This document shows, piece after piece, positions 4,742 to 54,971 of a DNA stretch of 59,980 bases; within the stretch, counting starts at the first letter, position 1, and the number at the start of each line of letters is the position of its first letter. Source of the DNA: Capnocytophaga sp. (GTDB lineage Bacteria > Bacteroidota > Bacteroidia > Flavobacteriales > Flavobacteriaceae); contig JAUMUT010000013.1 of the NCBI GenBank assembly GCA_030530525.1, positions 1 through 59,980 on the forward strand. The letters run 5' to 3'. Under the pieces are notes generated by a model, which saw only the letters and a list, made by a program, of their open reading frames with translations, was not told the origin of the DNA and ran no database searches. A program made the translations under genes and the position numbers.

Positions 4742-5662
4742 TTATATTTTTGGCAAATCTTTGGAAACTCGTTGCCAGAAATCTTCTTCAAAAAGGCGAG
4801 CAGCCCCCACCATAGCAGCATTTTCCATCAGCCCAGAAACGGCAACTTTCGTAAATACACCAGCGTTAGTGAGCGTAGTTTGCAAGGCTTTTTCAAAATA
4901 AGAGAATGCTAAGGAAATATTTCCACCTAAAATTAATATTTCCGCATCAAATTTTTTAAGCCAAGGAGCTAAAAATTCGCCTAAATTATTCCCAAATTCA
5001 TTAAATATTTCTTCAAATTGGTCTCCTCTTTCTAATATTTCTTTTGCGCCATTTACTTCTATTCCTGTTTTTTCTTTATACGTTTTCACGAACCAACGAG
5101 TGCTAAAATATTCGTCGGCAATACCATTTTTATAAGGCAAATGCCAAAAACAGCCCTCAGGAGCTACTTTTTCATTAGAAACTACGGGCGCACCATTTTG
5201 TATGTATGCCGACCCAAACCCTGTACCAAGCGTAATAGCCACTACTCTATCAAAATCTTTCCCGTTTCCGCCCCAGCAAACCCCTACGGCAAAGGAAGAA
5301 GCGTCATTAAGGAAGCGCATTGGCAATTCTTTGTTTATCAAATACTTAGAAAGTTCGGTAGGAATATGTTTTTTATAAATATTCGGATATTTATGTTCCA
5401 TCATTGAGAAACCTTCTTGGTAATTAAACGGACCAGGAACGGCAAACCCCAAACCTGCTACATTTTCTACCCCAACCTCTGAAAGGCATTCGTTAATGGC
5501 TTTTGCCCACGCTTTGAAAACATTTTCGGCAGTATCCGTGTGCGACAATCTATCGCGCTTAAAGGTCTCTTTTACAATCTGTTGAGAAAATCTATCCACC
5601 GCTACACAACTGATGTGGCTTCCTCCGATATCAATTCCGATAGTATATTTTTTTTCCGACAT
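4742..5662 (-). CDS. ROK family protein (putative sugar kinase) without the zinc motif
   Basis: A 306-residue ASKHA-fold protein. Phosphate-1 loop DIGGSH is at 11-16, the catalytic-type Asp is D120 in LNDASSF, and the phosphate-2 loop is GTGFGSAYI at 146-154. A further nucleotide-site segment, LILGGNIS, lies near 244. ROK kinases phosphorylate glucose or other sugars. The usual ROK zinc motif (CxCGxxGC) is absent. Its place holds APEGCFWHLPYKNGIADEYF near 168-187, so the substrate cannot be assigned. It is alone between two terminators and has its own TAnnTTTG promoter. Confidence 0.8.
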   Translation of the reverse strand: MSEKKYTIGIDIGGSHISCVAVDRFSQQIVKETFKRDRLSHTDTAENVFKAWAKAINECLSEVGVENVAGLGFAVPGPFNYQEGFSMMEHKYPNIYKKHIPTELSKYLINKELPMRFLNDASSFAVGVCWGGNGKDFDRVVAITLGTGFGSAYIQNGAPVVSNEKVAPEGCFWHLPYKNGIADEYFSTRWFVKTYKEKTGIEVNGAKEILERGDQFEEIFNEFGNNLGEFLAPWLKKFDAEILILGGNISLAFSYFEKALQTTLTNAGVFTKVAVSGLMENAAMVGAARLFEEDFWQRVSKDLPKI

Positions 5663-6100: not shown

Positions 6101-9100
6101 AGAATTTTTTCTCTAAGGTAATGTAGTATCCGCAACCTTTGGAATCTTCTACATATACACGCACTTGTTTTACTTTTTCGCCACTGGCATTGGTAGCATC
6201 TGCATCGGTACGCTGTACGTAATAGGTAATATCTTCATTTGCTTTTGCTTCTTGCTTATGAGAATAGTACGTTTTTAGCTCTGCTGCCGTGTTGTATAGA
6301 GGCGAACTGAAATATACCATATAGTTTTCTTTACCACCGCTTATGCTTACTTTTATTTCGTTTAAGCTATCGGCTTGGGTTTTGTCTGTTATGGTAAGTG
6401 CAGTATAGCCATCTATGGTAAAGGTTTCGGAAACTCCTTGACACTGACCGCCTTTGTAATACAAGGTTATGGTATGTGTTCCGTTGGTTAAGGCTGCGCC
6501 AGAACTTTGCGGATTTTTAATCACGAATAGATCGTGGGTTTCTACCCCTGTATTATTTGCACCTCCATTGCTATTAACTACCAAATCAAAGTTTCTACGA
6601 GTGGTTTCATTATCGTAAGAATATTGTAGGTCATTAATAGAATATCTGTGTCCTAAATAAGGTGTTTTCACGGTTACATACAAGTCATATGTAGGAGTTT
6701 GTACCTGTGTTAAATCATCAGAACAGTTATACACTTGTTGCACTTTTGCATTCAAATCTACACCTTCCAGTATTTCAAAGTCTTGGTTGAAGACACAACC
6801 ATTGGCATCGGTAACAGTAAGGGTATATTTAGCTGGTGCCAAACTTGTTTTAACTATTGGATCATTAAAGTTTAATGTATTTGCTGACGCTACAACTTCA
6901 TCAACTCCTGTACTTGTATGTTTATACATAACAAATTCATACAATGGTCGGCCTGTTTCTTTTCTTACTCCTGTGTTAGGGTCTAACTCTCCAAAAGCAA
7001 ATTGAATAGCACCATCATTTTTACCATAACAAGAAACGTTTTGTTTGCTTACTTGTTCTACTACTAAACGAGGATATTCTTCTACTTTAATATCTCTTAC
7101 TTCTACTTCACAATTGTAGGTAACGTCTTTAATTTTGATATGATAGAATCCTTCTTTTAGCCCTGTAAATTCATACTCGTCTTTACTACTACTATTTGGT
7201 GTTTGGTATATATAATTTGGAGAAATTGCAAATTGATAATTACCAGAACCTTGTTCTGCTTGAATAGTAATTTTTCCGTCGCTACTACCATAACAATTTA
7301 CTTTTTCGGCAGCAGGTGCGCCTTTAACGGCAACTTTTTTCTGTGCTTTAACGGTTATTGCTTTGGTTTGGCGACAATCTGCGTGCCCAACTACAGATTT
7401 TGTTACTTCAATAATATAATCTGTATCCAAAGTTTCATCAACAGACAATTCAAAACGATTAGAATTGTTGCGGGTACCTCCTGTACCTAATGTTGCAGGT
7501 GGGTATTCTGATGCTTTGTACAAACGATAGGTAACATTGGTAGCCTCTGCACTTGGAGTAACCACTGCATTAACAATGTATTTAAGCTCTCCATCTACAC
7601 ATTGATAGCCTTCGCTTTCGTCTAAGGTAACTTGGATATTAGAACCTGCTTCTATTTCCACAGAAACGATTTGTTCGCATAGATTTTTATCTACCACGCG
7701 TACGGTATGGCTTCCTGCGGAAAGGTTTTCAAGTCCTTTATCTTTATCATAACGAAGCGGGGTGGTAGTATTTCCATCTAAGTAATATTGATAATACTCG
7801 GTAGCTGGCGAAGTAGAAGTATCTTCTAACGGCGTACCACCATTGATGCTCAATTTTACTTTTCCGTCTGCTGCACCTGCGCAACTTTCGTGTTCGTATG
7901 TTCCTGACAATACTCCAACGTTTAGAGGAGATGGCTCTGTTATAGTAAATTCAAATATATGAACGTCATTGCCACTTGCGTCTAATTTTTTGGTAGTAGC
8001 ATCAGAATATACGGTTGGTCGGCAACTATTTTGGTCTTGCATTATTACGGTATAAACCCCTGGTTCTAAGCCTGTAAATACTCCACCATTATCCACAAAT
8101 CTGAAATCTGGGCTTATTGCGTACGTATATTGCCTTGTTGTTCCGCTTAACAAATTAGGGCTACTTATTAAATTAATAGTAAATTTACCATCATTTGCTC
8201 CGTTACAAGTTACATTGGTAGTTACGCCATAGGCTGTAAATTCTTTTTCTTGTTCAATTATTATCTCGGTTGTATCTATATCACAAGCGGTATTTCCTTG
8301 TGATACACGTACATAATATCTTCCTTCTGGTAGGTTGGTAAATTCACCTGTATTATTAGGAGATATTCCTGCGATAACGGTTTTAGTACCATCTAACAAG
8401 GTATAAGTATATTCTGTACCTACTTGTCCTCCTGTTGCTCTTACAACAATTTGCCCTGAACGACTTCCGTAGCAAGTTAAATGTGTTACAGTATGCGGAG
8501 TAATTGTAGTATCTGTTATGATAGAAATACTTATAGGTTGTACTGCTTCCACAGTTATTGTATTGGTAAAGCCTTCACAACCGTTAGAATCTACTACTTT
8601 AAATTTGTAAGTAGTTGTAGGTGCGTTTGGTACATTGGTAAATACATTACTTGCCAATGCGCTACCCATTACATTATTCGTATTTGGATCTACTTGGTAG
8701 TAGGTAAATGGTGCTAAGCCTACGGTTGGCACACCTATGGTTATTTCCCCGTTATTGGTACAATCTGGATACTTAGTAACGGTTGCCACTGGTATAATAA
8801 CATCTGGTGGTGTAACCACTACATTGGAAGTAGTAGCTGGCGAACACAATAATGGGTCTGTTATTTGAACATAATATGTACCTCCGCTAATTCCTGTAAA
8901 GGTATATGTACCTGTACTTGGGCTAGCACTTTCTCTGCCTTCTTCTACCAATAAATTAGTAGAAGCATTGTATAGATGGTAAGTATAGTTATTGCTACCT
9001 CCCGTTACTCCTGTTACGGTTACTGTTCCTAATACCGAACAAGTATTGGCAGTAGAGGTAACATTTACCCCTGCTACATTAAGAGGAGAAGGTAAGCTCA

Positions 9101-21989: not shown

Positions 21990-22007
21990 TAAAAAGTTTT
22001 TTGTTTG

Positions 22008-22044
22008 GTAAAGATTAACCTAAAAAATATTAGGCAATCTTTAC
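22008..22044. promoter_or_regulatory. Interrupted inverted repeat next to the adhesin promoter
   Basis: GTAAAGATT (22008-22016) pairs with AATCTTTAC (22036-22044), and inside it CCTAA pairs with TTAGG, giving a 14-bp stem with small bulges. It lies about 20-60 bases upstream of the putative -7 box. It could be an operator or, less likely, a terminator; there is no T run directly after it. Confidence 0.5.
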
Positions 22045-22273
22045 GAAAACATTTTATAATATATCCTTTATATAAAAAGTTTTCTCGCTCAATACAAGAC
22101 TTTAAAACTATTTTATAAAGTTATTTTTATTATTTATTTTGTGAAAAAGTTATTAACATTTTTAAGGATAATGGTTCATTTATAAGAACAAGCTATTTTT
22201 GAAGTATTCTTTTCTTTATAAAAAAACAAATCTTTACCTTTTCTTTATGTTATAAAAACTTAAAAAATATGTT

Positions 22274-22305
22274 AATATTAAACATTGAAACGAACATTTA
22301 ATATT
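22274..22305 (-). terminator. Possible punA terminator (AT-only stem)
   Basis: AATATTAAA and TTTAATATT form a 9-bp stem with a 14-nt loop about 40 bases beyond the punA stop. On the minus strand a T6 run follows a few bases later. The stem lacks GC pairs, hence low confidence. Confidence 0.35.
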
Positions 22306-22343
22306 ATGTTAATTTTATTAAATTAAAACCTGAATTTATTAAT

Positions 22344-23168
22344 TTATTTTGGAAATGTTTTTATAAATTCTTTCACGATAGTAATTACATTTGGCATTGC
22401 ATTATTTACAGCTTCCAATACTTCATCGTGCGAAACATTTGGGCTAATATCCGCTCCACCAACATCTGAAATTACAGAAATAGCAAAAATACGCATTCCT
22501 TGGTGGCGCGCCACGATAACCTCAGGTACGGTACTCATACCTACGGCATCGGCTCCTAAACGATATACCATTCCGTACTCGGCAGGAGTTTCAAAAGTTG
22601 GTCCTTGCAAGCCCAAATACACTCCTTTTTTTATTTCTATTTGTTTTTCATTGGCTATTTTTTGAGCAAAATCAAGCATTTCGCGGTCATAAGCCTGACT
22701 CATATCAGGGAAACGAGTTCCAAATTTTTCCAAATTTTTCCCTCGTAAAGGATGCTCTGGAAACATATTAATATGATCTGAAATGAGCATTACATCTCCT
22801 ATTTTAAAAGATGGATTTACCCCTCCCGAAGCATTGGAAACAATTAATTTTTCTATACCAAGACAATGGAAAATACGAACAGGGAAAGTAACTTCGCTCA
22901 TTGGGTAGCCTTCATAAAAATGAAAACGCCCTGCCATAAGCAACACATATTTTCCTTCTAATGTTCCGTAAATGAGGCGATTACCGTGTCCTTGAACCGT
23001 AGTTTGTGGAAAATTAGGAATATCCGAATACGGAATTTCGCAAATTGGCGTAACGGCATCTATCAAGGTAGCCAACCCCGAACCTAAAATAATTGCATAT
23101 TCTGGTTTTTCTTGTGTGAAAAACTGCTCAATGTAGCGTGTTGTTTCTTCAAATTTTTTGTATAACAT
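22344..23168 (-). CDS. punA: Purine-nucleoside phosphorylase
   Basis: Cleaves purine nucleosides with phosphate to base and (deoxy)ribose 1-phosphate in salvage. The 274-residue length fits the trimeric PNP class. Visible motifs are IILGSGLATL near residue 26 (phosphate loop), VQGHGNRLIYG near 58, MAGRFHFYEGYP near 78, VSNASGGVNPSFKIGDVMLI near 110, GPTFETPAEY near 189 and ADAVGMSTVPEVIVARH near 205. The gene starts 15 bases after the MlaF-type ATPase gene and is likely in the same transcript. Confidence 0.93.
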   Translation of the reverse strand: MLYKKFEETTRYIEQFFTQEKPEYAIILGSGLATLIDAVTPICEIPYSDIPNFPQTTVQGHGNRLIYGTLEGKYVLLMAGRFHFYEGYPMSEVTFPVRIFHCLGIEKLIVSNASGGVNPSFKIGDVMLISDHINMFPEHPLRGKNLEKFGTRFPDMSQAYDREMLDFAQKIANEKQIEIKKGVYLGLQGPTFETPAEYGMVYRLGADAVGMSTVPEVIVARHQGMRIFAISVISDVGGADISPNVSHDEVLEAVNNAMPNVITIVKEFIKTFPK

Positions 23169-23183
23169 ATTTCAATTTTGTTT

Positions 23184-23951
23184 TTAGTTTTCTTTCATTA
23201 AATACATTTGTCGTACTTTTTTGAACAATTCGGAAGAATATACGAAATCCGTAACTGCTTCATTATCTGTTCTAAAAATAGTATCTTTGCTTCCCTCCCA
23301 CTCTTTATAGCCATTTTTTAGGAAAATAATTTGTTCGCCTATTTCCATCACCGAGTTCATATCGTGGGTGTTAATGATGGTAGTAATGTTAAAATCTTGG
23401 GTAACGGTATGTATCAGGTTATCAATAACAATAGCCGTTTTGGGGTCTAAGCCAGAGTTTGGCTCATCACAAAAAAGATATTTTGGGGAATTGACTACGG
23501 CGCGCGCTATGGCTACTCGTTTTTGCATTCCGCCAGAAATTTCGGAAGGTTTTTTATGATGCGCATTAATCAGATTTACTTTTTCTAAGACAAAATCTAC
23601 GCGGTCTTGCATTTCTGCCTGCGATAAGTTGGAAAACATTTGCAAAGGGAACATCACATTTTCTTCTACCGTCATAGAATCAAAAAGGGCACTTCCTTGA
23701 AATACCATTCCCATTTCTTGTCTGAGTTTTCGTCGTTGTTCTTTGCTCATTTCGGCATATTTTACCCCTGCATAAAGGATATTTCCGCTATCAGGAATAT
23801 GAAGCCCCAAGAGTGTTTTCAGGAAAACGGTTTTGCCCGAACCACTTTGCCCAATAATTAAATTGGTTTTGCCTTGATGAAAGGTAGCCGAAATTCCTTT
23901 TAGGACTTCCACTCCACCGAATGATTTTTTAATATCTTGAACTTCAATCAT
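23184..23951 (-). CDS. MlaF-type ABC transporter ATP-binding protein
   Basis: A 255-residue ATPase with Walker A GQSGSGKT at 34-41, Q-loop Q85, signature SGGMQKR at 139-145, Walker B YLFCDEP at 158-164 and switch H196. It has the features of the Mla/Mkl group, which moves phospholipids between the membranes of diderm bacteria using an MlaE permease and an MCE protein. The permease gene lies upstream on the same strand but is separated by a 1.25-kb insert. The ATG is exactly preserved by the duplicated 14-bp junction. No MCE (MlaD) gene is in the window. The lipid and direction of transport cannot be told from sequence. Confidence 0.9.
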   Translation of the reverse strand: MIEVQDIKKSFGGVEVLKGISATFHQGKTNLIIGQSGSGKTVFLKTLLGLHIPDSGNILYAGVKYAEMSKEQRRKLRQEMGMVFQGSALFDSMTVEENVMFPLQMFSNLSQAEMQDRVDFVLEKVNLINAHHKKPSEISGGMQKRVAIARAVVNSPKYLFCDEPNSGLDPKTAIVIDNLIHTVTQDFNITTIINTHDMNSVMEIGEQIIFLKNGYKEWEGSKDTIFRTDNEAVTDFVYSSELFKKVRQMYLMKEN

Positions 23952-23964
23952 TTATGTTAATAAA
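23951..23964. repeat. Left 14-bp direct repeat of the mlaE/mlaF insert
   Basis: TTTATGTTAATAAA, identical to 25210-25223. On the minus strand it ends with the first base of the mlaF ATG. Confidence 0.85.
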
Positions 23965-24089
23965 TTATAAATATTATTTGCAGGTTCTTCCTCTAAAAAC
24001 TGAGGAATATCTGTAAATAATTTAGGTTGTTTATGAGGAGTAATTCTCTTATTAGCTAAGTTTAATTATATTTTTTCATACCTTCCCAT
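23952..24089 (-). pseudogene. Broken short reading frame at the end of the insert
   Basis: On the minus strand a frame runs from ATG (24087-24089), reads MGRYEKI, meets a TAA at 24066-24068, and then stays open for 37 codons. It includes TPHKQPKLFTDIPQFLEEE and ends in the duplicated junction (NLLT, stop). The protein-like composition after the stop suggests a decayed gene tail or a captured fragment. It is short, and chance is possible. I do not recognise the family. Confidence 0.3.
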
Positions 24090-24122
24090 TTATTGTCAGG
24101 CTAGCCAAAGTAGTTTCCTCAC

Positions 24123-24959
24123 TTAAAAATGTATCTCCTTTCTAAATTGTTTAGGTAAATTATCTATTATTTGAAAAACATCAAAGGTTTGTTCATTATT
24201 AAATTTAACTTTCCTTAACCACCCTTCATCATCAAAGGTTTGTTCCAAATTACAATAAGTAAATTGAGCGTGAATATTTGGAGAAACAACAAGTAAATTT
24301 TTCAAATGATTTCCTTTATTGGCATCAATGTGATGTATTTCAAAATAAGGTTTTCCATTTTTCATTATAAAAGTAAAACCCGAAAGCTGGCATTTGCCAA
24401 AATACATTTCTAATAATATTTTTCTTAAAGAAAAATTTACACTTTCTCGCACCGATATTGAAGGTCTTTCTATTATATTTCGTTCTTTTATTGTTTCATT
24501 AGAAAGCTGTACAAAAATATTTTGCAAAACTTCTTTTTCTGAAAGATTAGAAATTTTGGAAATCAATGATAAATTATTTTTCAAATCTATCTCAGAATTA
24601 GATTGTTCAAATTCATTCCAATGATGAGTGAATTTCTCTTGAAAAAGTTTTTCAGGAATTATTCTATATTTTCCATCATCTAATATTTGAATGATTAACT
24701 CATCATTTTCTTGTATTCCATATTTTTCATAAAAAGATTTCATTCCTCCTATACGACATTCACGGCTACTACTTTGATATGGAGTAAAATTTTTAATCCA
24801 ATGATTTCCTATTTCGTCTATTAAATATATTTCTTTTGTATTTTTTGGAAATAAATCAATCAAAGATACAGGAATAGCTAATAATCCTTTATCTATTCTG
24901 CTTTTAGTTACTTTTATTGTAATATAATTTAAGGGTAATTTAGAATTTTCAATCTTCAT
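24123..24959 (-). CDS. Putative HNH endonuclease with N-terminal B3/EcoRII-N-like DNA-binding domain
   Basis: Two candidate starts exist. 24971 gives 282 residues and 24959 (MKIENSKLP) gives 278; I use the shorter because it overlaps the upstream ORF less. In the long numbering, residues 15-107 fit a B3/EcoRII-N pseudobarrel: GLLAIPVSLIDLFP, a hydrophobic strand plus G-N-H-W, CRIGGMKSFYEKYGIQENDE, then DDGKYRIIPE. A helical linker follows, then an HNH nuclease at 185-240: GKCQLSGF, EIHHIDANKG with the paired His 213-214, NLLVVSP with N225, and H234 in IHAQF. Only one Cys of the usual CxxC is present. Proteins of this kind are often site-specific or modification-dependent nucleases, but no methyltransferase is near. 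The function is inferred. Confidence 0.65.
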   Translation of the reverse strand: MKIENSKLPLNYITIKVTKSRIDKGLLAIPVSLIDLFPKNTKEIYLIDEIGNHWIKNFTPYQSSSRECRIGGMKSFYEKYGIQENDELIIQILDDGKYRIIPEKLFQEKFTHHWNEFEQSNSEIDLKNNLSLISKISNLSEKEVLQNIFVQLSNETIKERNIIERPSISVRESVNFSLRKILLEMYFGKCQLSGFTFIMKNGKPYFEIHHIDANKGNHLKNLLVVSPNIHAQFTYCNLEQTFDDEGWLRKVKFNNEQTFDVFQIIDNLPKQFRKEIHF

Positions 24960-25134
24960 AAATTTCTTCAATAGTATTAGCTTCGTTCCATTCTTCTATA
25001 TTACTAATTATTTCTTCTTTATTAACAGATTGTTCCTTTGCTTTTTCATATGCTTCTTCTTCATTATCTGCTTCTATTTCATAAGAGCAAAAGGTTGAAT
25101 AATAGATATTTACTATATATTTTTTAGTGTTCAT
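24949..25134 (-). CDS. Small DpnD/PcfM-like protein
   Basis: This 61-residue acidic protein begins MNTKKYIVNIYYSTFCSYEI and continues EADNEEEAYEKAKEQSVN. That is the beta-strand plus E-A-x-x-x-E-E-A-helix layout of the DpnD/PcfM-like family, found in the DpnII restriction operon and in some conjugative elements. The biochemical role of that family is not established. Its stop lies inside the start of the HNH gene (overlap of 11 or 23 bases depending on the start), so the two are coupled. No TAnnTTTG box is visible upstream, and it may be read from the mlaE transcript. Confidence 0.5.
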   Translation of the reverse strand: MNTKKYIVNIYYSTFCSYEIEADNEEEAYEKAKEQSVNKEEIISNIEEWNEANTIEEIYED

Positions 25135-25209
25135 TATATTAGTTTAAAAGAATTTAAGCTCCCTCTAAAATAAAAGATTTTTTTCAGTAAAATCGTTGTT
25201 TAAAGTATA

Positions 25210-25223
25210 TTTATGTTAATAAA
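25210..25223. repeat. Right 14-bp direct repeat of the mlaE/mlaF insert
   Basis: TTTATGTTAATAAA, identical to 23951-23964. On the minus strand it encodes the end of the permease (LLT, stop). Confidence 0.85.
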
Positions 25224-25948
25224 ATTTGCGTTATGAGAAAATCAATAATTATAATAACCACACTTGTCCAAACGAAAGAAATGGTACTTGCTTTACCAAC
25301 ATCCAGCGCACCGCCCTTCATATAATAGCCGTGATACGCAGGAATGGTAGCCAATACGAACGCAAAAATAAGACTTTTTATAAAAGCATAAACCAAATGA
25401 AACGCCTTAAATTGTAGTTTCAAGCCTTCTAAAAACTCCGCCGAAGTGGTATAATGCCCAATGGTTGCCGCCAAATATCCGCCGTAAATACCCAACGCTA
25501 TCGCCATTGAAATAGCAAACGGATACAATAGCAAAGCGATGATTTTCGGGAATACCAAATAATTAAGCGAATTTACGCCCATAATATCCAGAGCATCAAT
25601 CTGTTCGGTAACGCGCATTGTCCCGATACTTGATGTAATGAACGAACCAACCTTCCCCGCTACAATAATAGAGGTAAAAGTTGGAGCAAATTCCAGCACG
25701 ATAGTTTGCCTTGTCGCAAAACCTATTAAGTTTTTGGGAATCAAAGGGTTATCAATATTCAAAGCCATTTGTATTGCAATAACCGCCCCAACAAACAAGG
25801 AAATAAAAGCGATAATCCCCAATGAACCAAACATAAGGTCGTCTATATCCTTCATTATCAGCTTTTTAGTCATTGCCCATTTGGTTCGTTTCCGAAAGAC
25901 TTCGTATATCATTATAAAATATCGCCCAATGGCTTCTAAGTGCTTCAT
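25211..25948 (-). CDS. MlaE-type ABC transporter permease
   Basis: A 245-residue inner-membrane permease with five or six hydrophobic segments. It has the conserved MlaE core: FGSLGIIAFISLFVGAVIAI, then GKVGSFITSSIGTMRVTEQI DALDIMGVNSLNYLVFPK around residues 118-155. MlaE works with an MlaF ATPase and an MCE-domain protein to move phospholipids between inner and outer membrane. The ATPase gene lies downstream but behind an inserted cassette, which keeps the permease stop codon intact inside the 14-bp repeat. It has its own promoter, 19 bases upstream. Whether transcription still reaches the ATPase gene is unknown. Confidence 0.92.
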   Translation of the reverse strand: MKHLEAIGRYFIMIYEVFRKRTKWAMTKKLIMKDIDDLMFGSLGIIAFISLFVGAVIAIQMALNIDNPLIPKNLIGFATRQTIVLEFAPTFTSIIVAGKVGSFITSSIGTMRVTEQIDALDIMGVNSLNYLVFPKIIALLLYPFAISMAIALGIYGGYLAATIGHYTTSAEFLEGLKLQFKAFHLVYAFIKSLIFAFVLATIPAYHGYYMKGGALDVGKASTISFVWTSVVIIIIDFLITQILLT

Positions 25949-25966
25949 AATTTATTTTTGAGAGGG

Positions 25967-25974
25967 CAAATATA
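25967..25974 (-). promoter_or_regulatory. -7 element for mlaE gene
   Basis: On the minus strand this reads TATATTTG, 18 bases before the start at 25948. Confidence 0.6.
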
Positions 25975-26085
25975 AAACTTTTTTTGGTGCTAACCATCAT
26001 TTTATTTAAGATTTTCAATAAATATACATTCGTTTAACCCAAAATGCTCCTTTTATTCTACTTTGTAGCAAGTGTATAAAAAAGA

Positions 26086-26111
26086 AAAGGCACAATATTT
26101 TTGTACCCTTT
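26086..26111 (-). terminator. aspA terminator
   Basis: AAAGG..ACAA pairs with TTGT..CCTTT with a small internal bulge, flanked by A- and T-rich tails, about 50 bases beyond the aspA stop. Confidence 0.6.
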
Positions 26112-26162
26112 CTTCTTTTTATTAAAACATATAAATTATTTATTATCAAATAGTTAAATATA

Positions 26163-27560
26163 TTAAGAATGAGATTCTAACATATTTTTAGGGTCTAAAA
26201 TTTGGTCTAATTTATCCTTAGAAAGTAATTCGTGTTCTAATACCAAATCATAAACGGATTTCCCTGTTTGAAGAGCTTCTTTGGCGATTTTTGTACTATT
26301 TTTATATCCGATATAAGGGTTCAATGCCGTTACAATACCAATACTATTTTTCACCATATTCAAACAAACTTCTTTATTGGCTGTTATGCCAACGATACAT
26401 TTTTCTCTGAGGGTATCCAAAGCGCGTTCTAAGAAAACGATAGATTCCATAATTGCCTGACAAATAACAGGTTCCATTACGTTAAGTTGCAACTGTCCTG
26501 CTTCGGCAGCAAACGTAACGGTAAGGTCATTCCCTATTACTTTAAAACATACCTGATTGACAACCTCTGGGATAACAGGATTTACTTTTCCTGGCATAAT
26601 GGAAGAGCCTGGCTGCATTGGAGGTAAATTAATTTCGTTCAAACCTGCACGTGGCCCCGAAGAAAGCAAACGAAGGTCGTTACAAATTTTTGACAATTTT
26701 ACAGCTAAACGTTTTAAAGCCGAAGAATACATAACATAAGAACCTGTATCTGGGGTTGCTTCTACCAAGTTGGAAGCTGGCACGAAATCTTCTCCTGTTA
26801 TTTTTGCTAATTTTTCAGCACAAAGTTTCGGGAAGCCAACAGGTGCATTAAGCCCTGTTCCGATAGCCGTTCCGCCCATATTTATTTCTAAAAATAATTT
26901 GGAAAGATTGTTCAAACGAGAAATTTCTTCTTCCAAAGTAGCTGCAAAAGCCTCAAATTCTTGTCCAAGTGTCATTGGCACAGCATCTTGCAATTGTGTT
27001 CGCCCCATTTTGATAACATCGGCAAATTCTTTCCCTTTTTGTCGGAATGCTTCTATCAATTTGGATAAAAATTTAACCAAAGAAGCATTCATTTTTATAA
27101 CCGCCAATTTTATCGTAGTTGGGTAAGCATCATTGGTAGATTGTGAGCAATTGATATGGTCATTAGGCGAGCAATATTGATATTCACCTTTTTGGTGGCC
27201 TAATAATTCTAACACTCGGTTGGCAATTACTTCATTTGCGTTCATATTTACGGAAGTTCCTGCACCGCCTTGTATCATATCCACAGGGAATTGATCGTGT
27301 AACTTCCCGTCAATCAATTCTTTACAAGCTGTTTCAATAGGAGAAAGTAATTCCTTTGGAAGTAAGCCAAGCTCATTATTGGTTTGTGCTGCAGCCAATT
27401 TCACATAAGCAACTGCGCGAACAAATTCAGGAAAATCGCACATTTTACTTCCTGTTATATGAAAATTGTCAATAGCTCGTTGAGTTTGTACGCCATAATA
27501 TGCCTCTGTGGGTACTTGTAAGTCGCCTAAAAGGTCAGACTCAATTCTGTAATTACTCAT
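26163..27560 (-). CDS. aspA: Aspartate ammonia-lyase
   Basis: Converts L-aspartate to fumarate and ammonia in the cytoplasm; a tetrameric member of the fumarase/aspartase superfamily. At 465 residues it has normal length. It opens [29 protein letters not shown], with the conserved [19 protein letters not shown]-like stretch near residue 97-115, the [16 protein letters not shown] segment near 132-147, and the superfamily signature [15 protein letters not shown] near 318-332, whose mobile loop holds the catalytic Ser. Aspartase is preferred over fumarase because of the overall pattern, including [10 protein letters not shown] at the start. It stands alone, with a terminator behind it. Confidence 0.92.
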
Positions 27561-32420: not shown

Positions 32421-34520
32421 TTATTTATTTTCTATTTTATTTAAATAATACGTATAAATTGCTTCTTGCGAACGGATTTTTTCTCCGCTTGTTGTTCGGT
32501 AGCTATTATCCTGATTTTCTGTTATCCAACGAGCTTTTACGTTATCTTGCCAAGCGATTTGGTAAGTATCCCAGAGTTGTTGCTGTATATTTTTGTCATA
32601 AATAGGACAACTGACTTCCACGCGGTTATTAAGGTTTCGCGACATCCAATCTGCCGAAGAAATGTAATACTCAGGATTGCCATTATTAGAAAAAATATAC
32701 AAACGTGGGTGTTCCAAATATTTATCTACAATACTGATAACCTCTATATTTTCGCTCCAACCTTTTATTTGCGGAATAAGGCAACAAACTCCGCGAACTA
32801 TCATTTGTATCTTCACTCCTGCATTGCTTGCTTCGTAGAGTTTATCTATCATTTCTTTATTAGTTAATCCGTTCATTTTCAGTTTAATAAAAGCTTCTTT
32901 TCCTGCTTTGGCATTATTAATTTCTCTTTCAATTAATTCTAAAAAGGAACTTTTGGTATAATGAGGCGAAACGAGCAAATGATTATAATGATGGATACGA
33001 TACGGCGTTTCAAAGAAGTCAAACACTCTATCCACTTCTTTTAATATTTCCTGATGCGCTGTAAATAGTGTATAATCGGTATAAATTTTAGCTGTTGTTT
33101 CGTTAAAATTTCCTGTACTTATAAAGCCGTAATACTTAATATTTTCGCCTTCTTCACGCTCTATAACACAAATTTTGCTATGCACTTTTAAGCCACGAAT
33201 ACCGAAAATAAGCTGTACCCCTTCGGCTTGTAGTTGTTCAGCATATTGGATATTTGCCGTTTCATCAAATCGTGCTTGAAGTTCTATTTGTACAGTAACT
33301 TTTTTTCCATTTTTAACCGCATTTATCAAAGAATTTACAATTTGTGAGTTTTTCGCCAAACGATAAATGGTTATTTTTATAGACTTCACTTTGGGGTCTA
33401 AGGCTGCTTCTCGCAAAAAGCGAATAACATATGAAAAGGAATGATAAGGCGTATATTGCAAATAATCTTGTTGGGCAATTTGTTTTAAAATACTTCCTTC
33501 AAAACTGAAATTTTGAATAGGTAAAGGTACAATTGGCGAATATTGAAGATCTTTTCGTCCTAAATTGGGGAAAGACATATAATCTCTTCTATTGTGGTAC
33601 CGCCCACCTGGAATAATGCTATCGGTAGAATGAATATTCATTCTTTTCATTAAAAAAAGAAGCGTATCTTTCTCTATTTCAGAATCATATACAAACCTTA
33701 CAGGTTGCCCAATTCGCCTACCCGCTACGCTATTGGAAATTTTTTGTATAAAACTTTTCCCCAAATCGGGGTCAATATCCAATTCGGCATCTCGAGTTAT
33801 TTTTATCATATTTGCCGAAATGTATTCATAATTAAAAATAGAAAATAATTTTGGCAAACAAAAACGAATAATATCATCTATAAGAATGATATAAATATTA
33901 TCATCTATGGTAGGAAGTTGGATAAACCTGTCCAATGTTTTCGGAATTTCAATAAGCGCATATTGAATTTTTTCCTTATATGCCATTGATGAAAAAAACT
34001 TATGCACGCCTTTATGTTTTTTCTCTTCCTCCCGAAGAATCATTTTTATAGCCAAATACGCAACATCGTCTTTTAAATTAGGGAGAACATCAAGGTCATT
34101 GAGGATAATTGTAAAAAGAATAGGCTGTATTTTATCAATGAAATATTGTTTTATATATTCAGTATGCTCAGGGAAAATTTCTTTTTCATTGATAATAAAA
34201 ATATTTTCCTGTTTGAGTTGTTCAAAAATAGCATCTAAAATACGAAGGCTTTCTTTCTGTAAATCAATAACTTTATCGGTTATAGTTTCTAAAAGTTGCG
34301 TAGAATTAAAACCTAAAACTTGGGTGTTATCTTCCCCCGAATCGGCAATTCTTTTGATAGTAGCGTAACGAACTTTAAAAAATTCGTCCAAATTATTAGA
34401 AAAAATTCCGACAAAACGCAAGCGGTCAAGAAGCGGAACACTAAAATCATTCGCCTCTTGCAGTACTCGCTCATTAAACGTCAGCCAGCTAAGTTCTCTA
34501 TTAATGTATTTATTTTTCAT
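32421..34520 (-). CDS. ppk1: Polyphosphate kinase
   Basis: Reversibly transfers the terminal phosphate of ATP to polyphosphate. The 699-residue protein shows the PPK1 layout: N-terminal helical domain (INRELSWLTFNERVLQEAND), a head domain, and two PLD-like catalytic halves. IYRLAKNSQIVNSLINAVKN and KKVTVQIELQARFDETANI precede GIRGLKVHSKICVIERE, which carries the phospho-accepting type His. The second half includes KLKMNGLTNKEMIDKLYEA and SSADWMSRNLNNRVE. It is monocistronic, with no exopolyphosphatase beside it. It probably serves phosphate storage and stress responses. Confidence 0.94.
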   Translation of the reverse strand: MKNKYINRELSWLTFNERVLQEANDFSVPLLDRLRFVGIFSNNLDEFFKVRYATIKRIADSGEDNTQVLGFNSTQLLETITDKVIDLQKESLRILDAIFEQLKQENIFIINEKEIFPEHTEYIKQYFIDKIQPILFTIILNDLDVLPNLKDDVAYLAIKMILREEEKKHKGVHKFFSSMAYKEKIQYALIEIPKTLDRFIQLPTIDDNIYIILIDDIIRFCLPKLFSIFNYEYISANMIKITRDAELDIDPDLGKSFIQKISNSVAGRRIGQPVRFVYDSEIEKDTLLFLMKRMNIHSTDSIIPGGRYHNRRDYMSFPNLGRKDLQYSPIVPLPIQNFSFEGSILKQIAQQDYLQYTPYHSFSYVIRFLREAALDPKVKSIKITIYRLAKNSQIVNSLINAVKNGKKVTVQIELQARFDETANIQYAEQLQAEGVQLIFGIRGLKVHSKICVIEREEGENIKYYGFISTGNFNETTAKIYTDYTLFTAHQEILKEVDRVFDFFETPYRIHHYNHLLVSPHYTKSSFLELIEREINNAKAGKEAFIKLKMNGLTNKEMIDKLYEASNAGVKIQMIVRGVCCLIPQIKGWSENIEVISIVDKYLEHPRLYIFSNNGNPEYYISSADWMSRNLNNRVEVSCPIYDKNIQQQLWDTYQIAWQDNVKARWITENQDNSYRTTSGEKIRSQEAIYTYYLNKIENK

Positions 34521-41972: not shown

Positions 41973-42659
41973 TTATCTTGTAATTCCCTCAGACATTAGT
42001 TTTTCATAATCGTCTTCGGTTATCGTTTTGTCAATTTTAGGATATTTTATTTTAGGAGAATTGGGCAGTTTTTCTATTTTTTCAAGAACAAACATATTTT
42101 TAGAACCTTGTTTGCCAACAGAAAAAATAAGCCCTGGCAGTCCGTATTGTTTAGCAACTCCACCTCTTATAGGAAAATCCGGACAAAACCAAGCTTCCCA
42201 TATTTCATACATTTGTATTTTTCGTATATAGCTGTAATACTGACACTTACCAACCGCTTTATAGCAAGTATAACTTTGTATTGTTTGAGTTTCATCGGTT
42301 ATTTCCCATTTTATCCGATGTGTAGGATATTCCACAAACACCGCTTTGCCTTCTACATCTGCCTCTTGGATTACTTTATTTTTGGTATAATAATAAGAAC
42401 TATTCCCGCTCCAATCTATCACACCTTCTGGAAGCAGATTTTTTAAAGACGAAAAATACGCAATGGTATCATTGGCTAAAAGTTCATATTTTAAGTATTT
42501 TGTATTATTCATATCGTTTTGTAAGTTTTTTCTTACAAAAGGATCTTTTACTTTGTCTATTTTCTCTTGGGTTAGCCCTGTTGTTTTTCCGTAAGTAATT
42601 CTATAATTCTGAGAAAATACAGGAAAAGAGAATAATATTAAATACAATAATAATTTCAT
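41973..42659 (-). CDS. GLPGLI family protein
   Basis: A 228-residue exported protein with a signal peptide ending FPVFSQ. The family motif is literally present, GLPGLIFSVG at 173-182, with the typical preceding EAWFCPDFPIRGGVAKQY. GLPGLI proteins occur with TonB-type outer-membrane proteins across Bacteroidetes, but their function is unproven. The gene is directly followed by its barrel partner. Upstream is a small secreted peptide gene, separated by a 14-bp hairpin. The cluster may be one unit for export, uptake or processing of a peptide (inference). Confidence 0.92.
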   Translation of the reverse strand: MKLLLYLILFSFPVFSQNYRITYGKTTGLTQEKIDKVKDPFVRKNLQNDMNNTKYLKYELLANDTIAYFSSLKNLLPEGVIDWSGNSSYYYTKNKVIQEADVEGKAVFVEYPTHRIKWEITDETQTIQSYTCYKAVGKCQYYSYIRKIQMYEIWEAWFCPDFPIRGGVAKQYGLPGLIFSVGKQGSKNMFVLEKIEKLPNSPKIKYPKIDKTITEDDYEKLMSEGITR

Positions 42660-43120: not shown

Positions 43121-43711
43121 ATGAATTTTTTAGAACTTGCAAAAAATCGTTATACGACCAAATCGTATCGAACAGAAAAAATAAGCGAAGCCAAAATACA
43201 AGAACTTAAAGAAATTTTGCGCCTTGCTCCATCTTCCATTAATAGCCAACCTTGGAAATTTTATTTTATTGATAACCAAGAAACTAAACAAAAATTAGCC
43301 AAAGTTTCATTTATGAATGAAGAACGCATACAACAGGCGAGCCATTTGGTAGTTTTTTCGGTAATTAATGATATTGAACTATTTGAAAATCAATTACCTA
43401 AATATATTCACGAAGGTGCTGTTGCTTTTTATAAACAAAATGTAAAATCTCACGGTGAAGAAGCCGTTAAAAATTGGCTGGCACGACAAGTTTATATTTC
43501 CTTAGGCTATTTCTTAACTGCTTGTGCTACAATGGGAATTGATTCTACACCAATGGAAGGAATTGATAATCAGAAATATAATGAAATTTTAGGACTGAAA
43601 GAATACCACACATTTTTTGCTGTTGCCATCGGATATCGTAATCCCGAAGATAGCAACCAGCCTTTGGTGCAGCCAAAACAAAGACTTCCTTTAGAAAAAA
43701 TTATCGGATAA
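43121..43711 (+). CDS. NAD(P)H nitroreductase family protein
   Basis: A 196-residue FMN-dependent oxidoreductase of the NfsB type. The N-terminal FMN-binding segment is RYTTKSYRTEK near residue 8, with LAPSSINSQPWKFYF near 34 and the later GIDSTPMEGIDNQKYNEILG near 144. The family reduces nitroaromatics, quinones or flavins with NAD(P)H. The true substrate is not readable. The protein ends in PKQRLPLEKIIG. It is followed after 40 bases by a YiaAB-type membrane gene, and the two may be co-transcribed. Confidence 0.9.
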   Translation: MNFLELAKNRYTTKSYRTEKISEAKIQELKEILRLAPSSINSQPWKFYFIDNQETKQKLAKVSFMNEERIQQASHLVVFSVINDIELFENQLPKYIHEGAVAFYKQNVKSHGEEAVKNWLARQVYISLGYFLTACATMGIDSTPMEGIDNQKYNEILGLKEYHTFFAVAIGYRNPEDSNQPLVQPKQRLPLEKIIG

Positions 43712-54056: not shown

Positions 54057-54971
54057 CTAAAAAATAGAAGTATGCGTTTGTATGGTAAATTCTTCTAAAA
54101 ATTTCATTCCTCTGTAAGAATTGCCTTTGTCGTTCAATTTAGGACTCCAAACCGCAATACTATAATGATTGGGCATTACCGCTACAATGCCTCCTCCTAC
54201 TCCACTCTTGCCAGGAAGCCCTACCCGAAAGGCAAATTCGCCCGATTCGTCATAAAAACCACAAGTTTGCATAATAGCATTTATCCTTCTTGTATGAATT
54301 TTGCTTAAAATGCGCTTATTATCGTGCAGAGTAACCCCGTCATTTGCCAAAAAAGAGAATACATACGCCAAAGAACGGCAATTAAACTCTATGGAGCACA
54401 AATCAAAATAAAAATCTAAGACATCAATAGGGTTATTTTTAATATTTCCTAAGGATTTTATATAATAACAGAGGGCAAAGTTACGATAACCTACGGATTT
54501 TTCAGATTCTGCAATACGTTTGGAATAGGAAATGCTTTCATCATTTGCCAAATGGCGAACAAATTTTAAGAAATCTTCTATCGGATTTTTTAAAATAGAA
54601 AGCAATACATCACAAACTACCAACGCTCCTGCATTAATAAGCGGATTTCGTGGTATGCCTCTATCGGCTTCCAACTGCACAAGAGAGTTAAACGATGTAC
54701 CCGAAGGCTCAATACCTACACGCTCCCACAACTTGTCATTGAGCTTACTATAAGCCAAACTTACTGCCAAAACTTTGGCTATACTTTGTATGGAAAATTT
54801 ATCTTCAAAATCACCAATCCCAAAAGATTTTTTATCCAAGCCAAAATAATAAATTCCAAATTTATCAGGATTTACTTGTCCCAATTCTGGAATATAAGTA
54901 GCTATTTCGCCTTTATTTTCGCCTTTAAGTATATGATTATATATATATTCTATTATTTTTGGATAATTCAT
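54057..54971 (-). CDS. glsA: Glutaminase A
   Basis: Hydrolyses glutamine to glutamate and ammonia in the cytoplasm. At 304 residues it matches the serine-type (beta-lactamase-like fold) glutaminases. The Ser-x-x-Lys active-site motif is S63-I-A-K66 in FSIQSIAKV. Also present are GIPRNPLINAGALVVCD near 109, the conserved Tyr region of GYRNFALCYYIKS near 160, and LPGKSGVGGGIVAVMP near 253. It is transcribed alone from a TATTTTTG promoter. Confidence 0.95.
   Translation of the reverse strand: MNYPKIIEYIYNHILKGENKGEIATYIPELGQVNPDKFGIYYFGLDKKSFGIGDFEDKFSIQSIAKVLAVSLAYSKLNDKLWERVGIEPSGTSFNSLVQLEADRGIPRNPLINAGALVVCDVLLSILKNPIEDFLKFVRHLANDESISYSKRIAESEKSVGYRNFALCYYIKSLGNIKNNPIDVLDFYFDLCSIEFNCRSLAYVFSFLANDGVTLHDNKRILSKIHTRRINAIMQTCGFYDESGEFAFRVGLPGKSGVGGGIVAVMPNHYSIAVWSPKLNDKGNSYRGMKFLEEFTIQTHTSIF

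Follow-up and report, generated by a model that had tools for sequence, protein, structure and literature searches.

Between the permease gene mlaE and the ATPase gene mlaF of a Capnocytophaga sp. lies an AT-rich cassette that is an insertion with a duplicated 15-base-pair (bp) target; it stands in the window, that is, the whole 59,980-nucleotide (nt) stretch of contig JAUMUT010000013.1 analysed here. The cassette holds a small gene, P0002, and an intact gene of 278 amino acids (aa), whose product is probably a DNA-cutting enzyme combining a B3-like DNA-binding fold with an HNH motif, to judge from its structure model and conserved residues. On balance we lean towards the reading that the cassette originated in a Type II restriction-modification (R-M) operon and is a mobile nuclease module, now solitary: a self-sparing restriction-type nuclease placed by illegitimate insertion. 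The locus is a clean case of an apparently R-M-derived piece set into a tight operon junction with neither gene harmed.

Insertion at the mlaE-mlaF junction

The two mla genes are separated by 1,245 nt lying between direct-repeat copies. A sequence-only reading of this DNA had placed identical 14-bp repeats on both sides of a cassette here, and the 14-mer TTTATGTTAATAAA does occur in exact copies at 23951-23964 and 25210-25223, but the true repeat is 15 nt long, ATTTATGTTAATAAA, exact at 23950-23964 and 25209-25223. The layout had been described correctly: the mlaE stop lies inside the 25209 copy and the mlaF start is abutted by the 23950 copy. mlaE was matched in 56 of 60 genomes and the best 30 places, one of them the window, were compared. 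In the four nearest congeners (L003-L006, loci being cited by our own numbers; mlaE 87-91% identical) the mlaF ATG follows the mlaE stop after 0, 0, 0 and 1 nt, which is the uninterrupted junction that the earlier reading had named as a check on its proposal of an insertion with target duplication. At 22 of the 29 non-window loci among the best 30, mlaF is adjacent to mlaE (-4 to +44 nt), none of the 22 with an insert, and the nuclease protein was found in its own genome only (0 of 59 other relatives searched). The pattern of an R-M-type insertion, a direct duplication (15 nt here) set beside a single undivided junction (4/4 nearest congeners), was thus found. At the other seven loci (L009-L014, L028) mlaF did not follow mlaE within the flank examined, and the junction seems to be broken in other ways within the genus.

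The 15-mer repeat by itself is not rare in the AT-rich window, because three more direct-repeat pairs of at least 15 nt at 800-2000 nt spacing occur within it; the chance of a 15-mer at one fixed place, given the composition of the insert, is P ~1e-7. What carries weight is that the repeat lies exactly at the two borders of an insert that relatives lack. In addition, the composition of the insert is foreign, with a GC content of 0.25 in each insert open reading frame (ORF) compared to 0.38 in mlaE and mlaF. Neither insert ORF matched a transposase or integrase (ORF list, Pfam and NCBIfam), and the inverted-repeat listing of the insert (31 pairs) held no convincing terminal inverted repeat, one weak pair (I13, 13 nt, 85%) lying near both ends; both absences had been claimed from the sequence and they hold. 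A transposon or insertion sequence was rejected on these two grounds. An RNA element was set aside as well, the region 22000-27000 being without an Rfam match at gathering scores.

The probable nuclease and its small partner

The start of the nuclease gene overlaps the end of P0002 by 11 nt. The N-terminus of the protein matched the Pfam B3 family weakly (5e-4, below the curated cut-off), and in the AlphaFold2 model, made from 5 sequences, the predicted local distance difference test (pLDDT) block means are 75-92 over residues 11-150 in the N-terminal part. Foldseek searches with the model gave 11 matches at an expectation value (E) of at most 0.001, all of them plant B3 domains or LlaJI.R1; single values were 2.7e-4 for 6c5d, 0.027 for 2c1l and 0.036 for 3zi5, with BfiI lower in the ranking at ~0.03. 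In the C-terminal half, H208, H209, N220, N227 and H229 are invariant across nine nuclease sequences and form an HNH-type pattern. The corresponding domain matches are weak, that to Pfam HNH_3 (0.03) lying below the curated cut-off and that to the HNH domain of EcoKMcrA reaching E 0.019 with the single sequence and 0.008 with a profile. Homology to restriction enzymes at the locus consists of this EcoKMcrA match and the B3 fold matches only, and a PDB search returned no close homologue among characterised restriction enzymes.

P0002 had no match in Pfam, NCBIfam or PADLOC, and its structure model is of low confidence (mean pLDDT 67). Homologues precede the nuclease at 4 of the 12 nuclease loci compared, namely the window, L035 (48% identity), L050 (46%) and L129 (51% over 51 aa). 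A role as acidic inhibitor or antitoxin of the nuclease was considered and dropped; it is not claimed because the L035 homologue is basic (isoelectric point (pI) 9.05). By the ORF lists, a small ORF with paired cysteines replaces P0002 before the nuclease in L053 (6208-6423, minus strand) and L130 (1941-2147, minus strand). Gene order across the loci suggests that the small partners of the B3-HNH gene may be interchangeable.

Distribution of the nuclease family and empty sites

Twelve distinct nuclease loci were compared (window, L032, L033, L035, L050-L054, L129-L131), obtained by pattern scanning in named genomes (4 loci) and by three profile searches with overlapping samples. The first search, of genomes of the phylum, gave matches in 12 of 395 genomes at E ≤0.001, seven of them strong; the second and third gave matches in 3/98 and 7/391 genomes. 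Partial HNH-level matches (G213, G254, G287, G316, G400 and a second partial one in G449) were excluded before the count, and the sequence copies of L033 (L034, L036, L049, L122, L128) were counted once. The nuclease frame is open in 12/12 loci. Hosts include Desulfaltia (L032), Ignavibacteriales (L033) and Neomarinimicrobiota (L035), and in the nuclease tree the window groups with L050-L052 (support 88/92, short of the value at which the tool treats a fork as firm). Carriage of the cassette by phages or plasmids was rejected: pattern scans of viral contigs gave no nuclease relative, a protein-level search of 50,697 phage records gave one partial HNH-level match and no full-length copy, and among 72,556 plasmid records there were two partial HNH-level matches, no full-length copy and no DNA match.

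Two other members have empty-site comparators, which answers the expectation of the sequence-only reading that the cassette family would stand at other sites in other genomes. The L051 insert (1.07 kb) lies between two genes that are 22, 5 and 66 nt apart in L112, L113 and L111, respectively. The L050 island (2.8 kb, in the order R-small gene-nuclease-M, R being the restriction gene and M the methylase gene) follows a gene that we read as ArgR-like; its empty-site comparator L114 has 47 nt at that place, and L116 and L115 have 145 and 405 nt. The further expectation of different flanking duplications at such sites failed, as no direct repeat of at least 11 nt flanks the borders at the 9 other loci tested (L050, L051 and seven more, among which two genomes contribute the same sequence as L033 and L034; the test covered loci other than L129-L131). 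A 12-nt pair in L050 has one copy inside M and hence does not flank. The duplication is therefore special to the window, or only still visible there.

These loci also bear on the idea that the cassette is a passive passenger, its 15-bp att or target repeat being the trace of an integrase or transposase supplied in trans. The 15-nt repeat and the lack of a recognised mover inside the insert would fit, but the absence of a repeat at the nine other loci, the lack of a convincing terminal inverted repeat, and the ends of the L050 and L051 inserts, which are R or M pieces and not shared element ends, make it very improbable.

Linkage to a Type II restriction-modification family

At six of the 12 loci (L033, L035, L050, L051, L129, L130) a Type II methylase gene directly follows the nuclease; that of L050 is assigned to MTase_II by PADLOC (2.9e-107). 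Eight nuclease-free R-M regions of the L050 M family were chosen from the best matches of an M search. In these, M measures 303-338 aa (8/8), a complete R stands just before M in L079 (288 aa) and L082 (284 aa), and R is broken or not seen in some others. Beside the nuclease, M is without its N-terminus at all six loci, its homology starting no more than ~16 nt from the end of the nuclease stop codon; the first homologous M residue is ~56 in L033, 66 in L050, 232 in L035, 264 in L051, 54-59 in L129 and 49-53 in L130. At L050, L129 and L130 a profile search carries the M alignment 56-65 nt back into the nuclease gene, which we read as a forced extension. R before the module is shortened in four of the six, with residues 1-206 left in L035, 3-209 in L129 and 1-~93 plus 227-284 in L050, and with a second R type in L130 (181 aa compared to 210 aa in L084, from ORF lists only); no R was seen beside the module in L033 and L051. 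The same M family is preceded by this different-looking R type, ~210 aa long, in L080 as well as L084 (ORF lists).

The comparison of L050 with L077 delimits the exchange. Homology ends at L050:5053/L077:2438 and is picked up again at 6173/2648, M being 86% identical, and 1,119 nt stand in L050 in place of 209 nt of R-M junction. Those 1,119 nt comprise the small gene and the nuclease, preceded by a leader of 83 nt and followed by another 6 nt. That the module had simply landed inside M, with both M halves kept, was rejected, as no M N-terminus was found upstream in the loci searched. One genome, G441, has both the nuclease with an N-terminally shortened M (L033) and a separate intact R-M operon of the L050 M family (L082). 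Strict antagonism between nuclease and M was dropped, since G441 has both and the sample (of 395 genomes, 7 with a strong nuclease match and 18 with an M match at E ≤1e-98 besides that of L050 itself) is without power.

In the window, the tail after the nuclease is probably a relic of M, as suggested by a frameshift-tolerant profile of the M C-terminus. This profile scores 44.2 on the 159 nt after the nuclease stop, a score that Markov shuffling matched in 6 of 4000 copies and that 2 of 1976 tiles of the window also attained; the profile includes nuclease-linked tails, that of L035 among them, and excludes the tails of L076 and L118. The first profile run gave 43.4 for the window, 144.6 for L051, 206.2 for L035, 23.2 for L032 and 32.4 for L052. 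In a first version with single M sequences, 1 of 120 Markov shuffles (4 of 8 M tails) reached the observed 43. Plain hmmsearch found no methylase in the window tail. Elsewhere in the same genome the best M match is 37% over 71 aa.

Origin and possible role of the module

In the reading that we favour, the small gene and the B3-HNH gene would have settled where R meets M in one R-M family, displacing the 3' part of R together with the 5' part of M, and the module would then have travelled with pieces of the R-M scaffold. A copy without R and with the probable M relic would have entered mlaE-mlaF, the 15-bp target being duplicated through a staggered break or repair. The duplication would have rebuilt both gene ends, so that both mla genes are intact, and the cassette is co-oriented with the operon. 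The B3 domain would read a DNA sequence and the HNH domain would cut, the nuclease would serve in defence as a restriction-type enzyme on its own, perhaps dependent on modification, and P0002 would be a partner made from the overlapping upstream gene. Since the nuclease has kept its frame whole even beside a truncated, broken or missing M, the enzyme probably needs no M for self-sparing and, as far as gene content tells, would spare its host without a neighbouring methylase.

Several observations weigh against this reading. Both Pfam domain matches (B3 and HNH_3) lie under the curated cut-offs, and the HNH half of the AlphaFold2 model is mostly at pLDDT <50. P0002 is present at only 4/12 loci and is not consistently acidic (pI 4.1, 9.05, 4.6). 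The relic signal is weak (6/4000, and 1/120 in the first version) and was missed by plain hmmsearch, and the nine other nuclease loci have no target duplication. Moreover, the shortened M is open in L033 (238 aa, with a masked stretch), L050 (241 aa) and L130 (235 aa) and could still be active. The coexistence of the nuclease and an intact R-M operon in G441 also speaks against cutting of that mark unless the specificities differ.

It is possible, though in our judgement rather unlikely, that the module is instead a mobile invader of R-M operons that comes in between R and M, removes the R end and the M start, leaving neither able to work or kill, and then moves as a solitary unit into further operon junctions, mlaE-mlaF being one. 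If so, it would parasitise or disarm restriction systems; that the cargo itself is the selfish element, as proposed from the sequence, is one of the live readings. Just as tentatively, the B3-HNH protein may be a free-standing homing endonuclease that cuts M near its conserved SPPYN region, and now and then other junctions, and is copied in by repair, R and M being its broken targets. This would account for a 3' border at, or at most ~16 nt from, the nuclease stop in 6/6 clear cases and for a junction at M residues 49-66 in four of the six (L033, L050, L129, L130) despite differing R genes, one type being present in L050 and L129 and another in L130 (ORF lists). It would also suit the patchy occurrence of the family, which spans three GTDB-type phyla (that of the window, Thermodesulfobacteriota with L032 and Fidelibacterota with L035), and the copies without R or M at unrelated junctions. 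However, no N-terminal piece of M stands upstream of the module in the loci searched, unlike in a simple insertion, no copy was found in viral contigs and none of full length in phages or plasmids, and the recognition sequence of a B3 domain is shorter than homing usually requires.

Ordinary decay of an R-M system would make the HNH protein the cognate enzyme of the adjacent M, which the window has lost, so that the nuclease would be dead or blocked by another methylase of the host. The pairing of the nuclease with an open M frame, overlapping or near its stop, in L033 (238 aa) and L130 (235 aa) is consistent with this, as is the other N6/N4-like methylase frame of the host (37% over 71 aa), and solitary enzymes with distant methylases appear in the available portion of PMC3488263. 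We regard decay as improbable: the nuclease is open with no intact M recognised at 9/12 loci (window, L032, L035, L051-L054, L129, L131; for L032 the contig continues for only 1.3 kb after the nuclease, which limits the count), and a different R already serves the same M family in the nuclease-free L079 and L082.

Relation to known systems

Restriction genes that stand alone, near M pseudogenes, have been described as a class (PMC3488263, in the part available). The cassette resembles them in that the nuclease is intact and the adjacent methylase is broken or gone, and a full-length nuclease without an uncorrupted methylase nearby is what the locus shows. The present nuclease differs in lying inside an R-M operon that is already served by a different R, with M truncated at the nuclease stop or close to it in 6/6 clear cases. 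As a complete Type II system, that is, R with an intact cognate methylase, the cassette does not qualify, no R being recognised and M being at most a frame-broken relic. Insertion of an R-M system with a long target duplication has been reported (cited in PMC3031569, as excerpted); the two cases are alike in the R-M-derived insert, the duplicated target and the intact flanks, but here the duplication is only 15 bp and was seen at one of the loci tested.

Among modification-dependent enzymes, EcoKMcrA, PcaII, TagI and VcaM4I share the order of an N-terminal DNA reader and a C-terminal HNH domain, as far as the accessible text of PMC7145662 and PMC8989522 goes; the reader here is B3-like, whereas it is NEco, SRA or EVE in those enzymes. 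BfiI and LlaJI.R1 share the B3 fold with the present nuclease (Foldseek), but the catalysis of BfiI is of the phospholipase D type, according to the portion of PMC4081073 at hand, and the present motif is HNH-like. Conflict of an R-M system with an HNH enzyme that depends on methylation has a precedent in PMC8989522, again in the portion at hand. The open-licence papers searched contained no description of a module of B3-HNH and small gene, the subscription literature lying mostly outside the search. In this family the nuclease frame remains whole where neighbouring parts of R and M have been removed, and both exact borders and empty-site comparators are known. This makes it testable whether solitary nucleases are decayed R-M systems, modification-dependent defence or parasites that disarm restriction.

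Layout of the locus and minor observations

On the minus strand, in the direction of the operon, the order is mlaE, repeat, 74-nt leader, P0002, nuclease, 158-nt tail, repeat, mlaF.

Features of the cassette and its flanks, with positions in the window and the evidence used
Feature	Position	Strand	Basis
mlaE permease gene, intact, upstream flank	25211..25948	-	ORF; Pfam MlaE 1.6e-59
Right 15-nt direct-repeat copy, contains mlaE stop	25209..25223	.	Repeat search, junction comparison
Leader of 74 nt, repeat to small gene, no R-gene remnant recognised	25135..25208	-	L050 counterpart 83 nt
P0002, small partner gene, 61 aa	24949..25134	-	ORF; 3' end overlaps nuclease start by 11 nt
B3-HNH nuclease gene, 278 aa (P0001 = protein minus first M)	24123..24959	-	ORF, Pfam, structure, alignment
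Predicted B3-like DNA-binding domain, P0001 residues 13-93	24678..24920	-	Pfam below cut-off, AlphaFold2 (block pLDDT 76-92, residues 11-100), Foldseek
HNH motif region, P0001 residues ~189-232	24261..24392	-	Pfam below cut-off, EcoKMcrA profile match, invariant columns
Probable frame-broken relic of N6/N4 DNA methyltransferase C-terminus	23965..24122	-	Frameshift-tolerant profile; best-aligned ~24036-24076
Left 15-nt direct-repeat copy, abuts mlaF start	23950..23964	.	Repeat search, junction comparison
mlaF ATPase gene, intact, downstream flank	23184..23951	-	ORF; Pfam ABC_tran 9.5e-35

Direct repeats elsewhere in the window include a 16-nt pair at 42117-42132 and 43171-43186 (spacing 1,054 nt) and 15-nt pairs at 32682/34392 and 38833/40031. 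In L050 the leader (5054-5136), which precedes the small gene, carries a GGGCGTTTCCCTTTCGGGTCGGGCTATCCG motif, presumably a dispersed repeat, of which no exact copy was found in viral contigs or in the window cassette. The GGGCGTTTCCC-type motif of this leader was rejected as a shared end, as among 121 loci it occurred only in those covering the L050 region and viral contigs were free of it; in the window, one 13-mer of this type with 1 mismatch lies at 54218, where 0.35 were expected.

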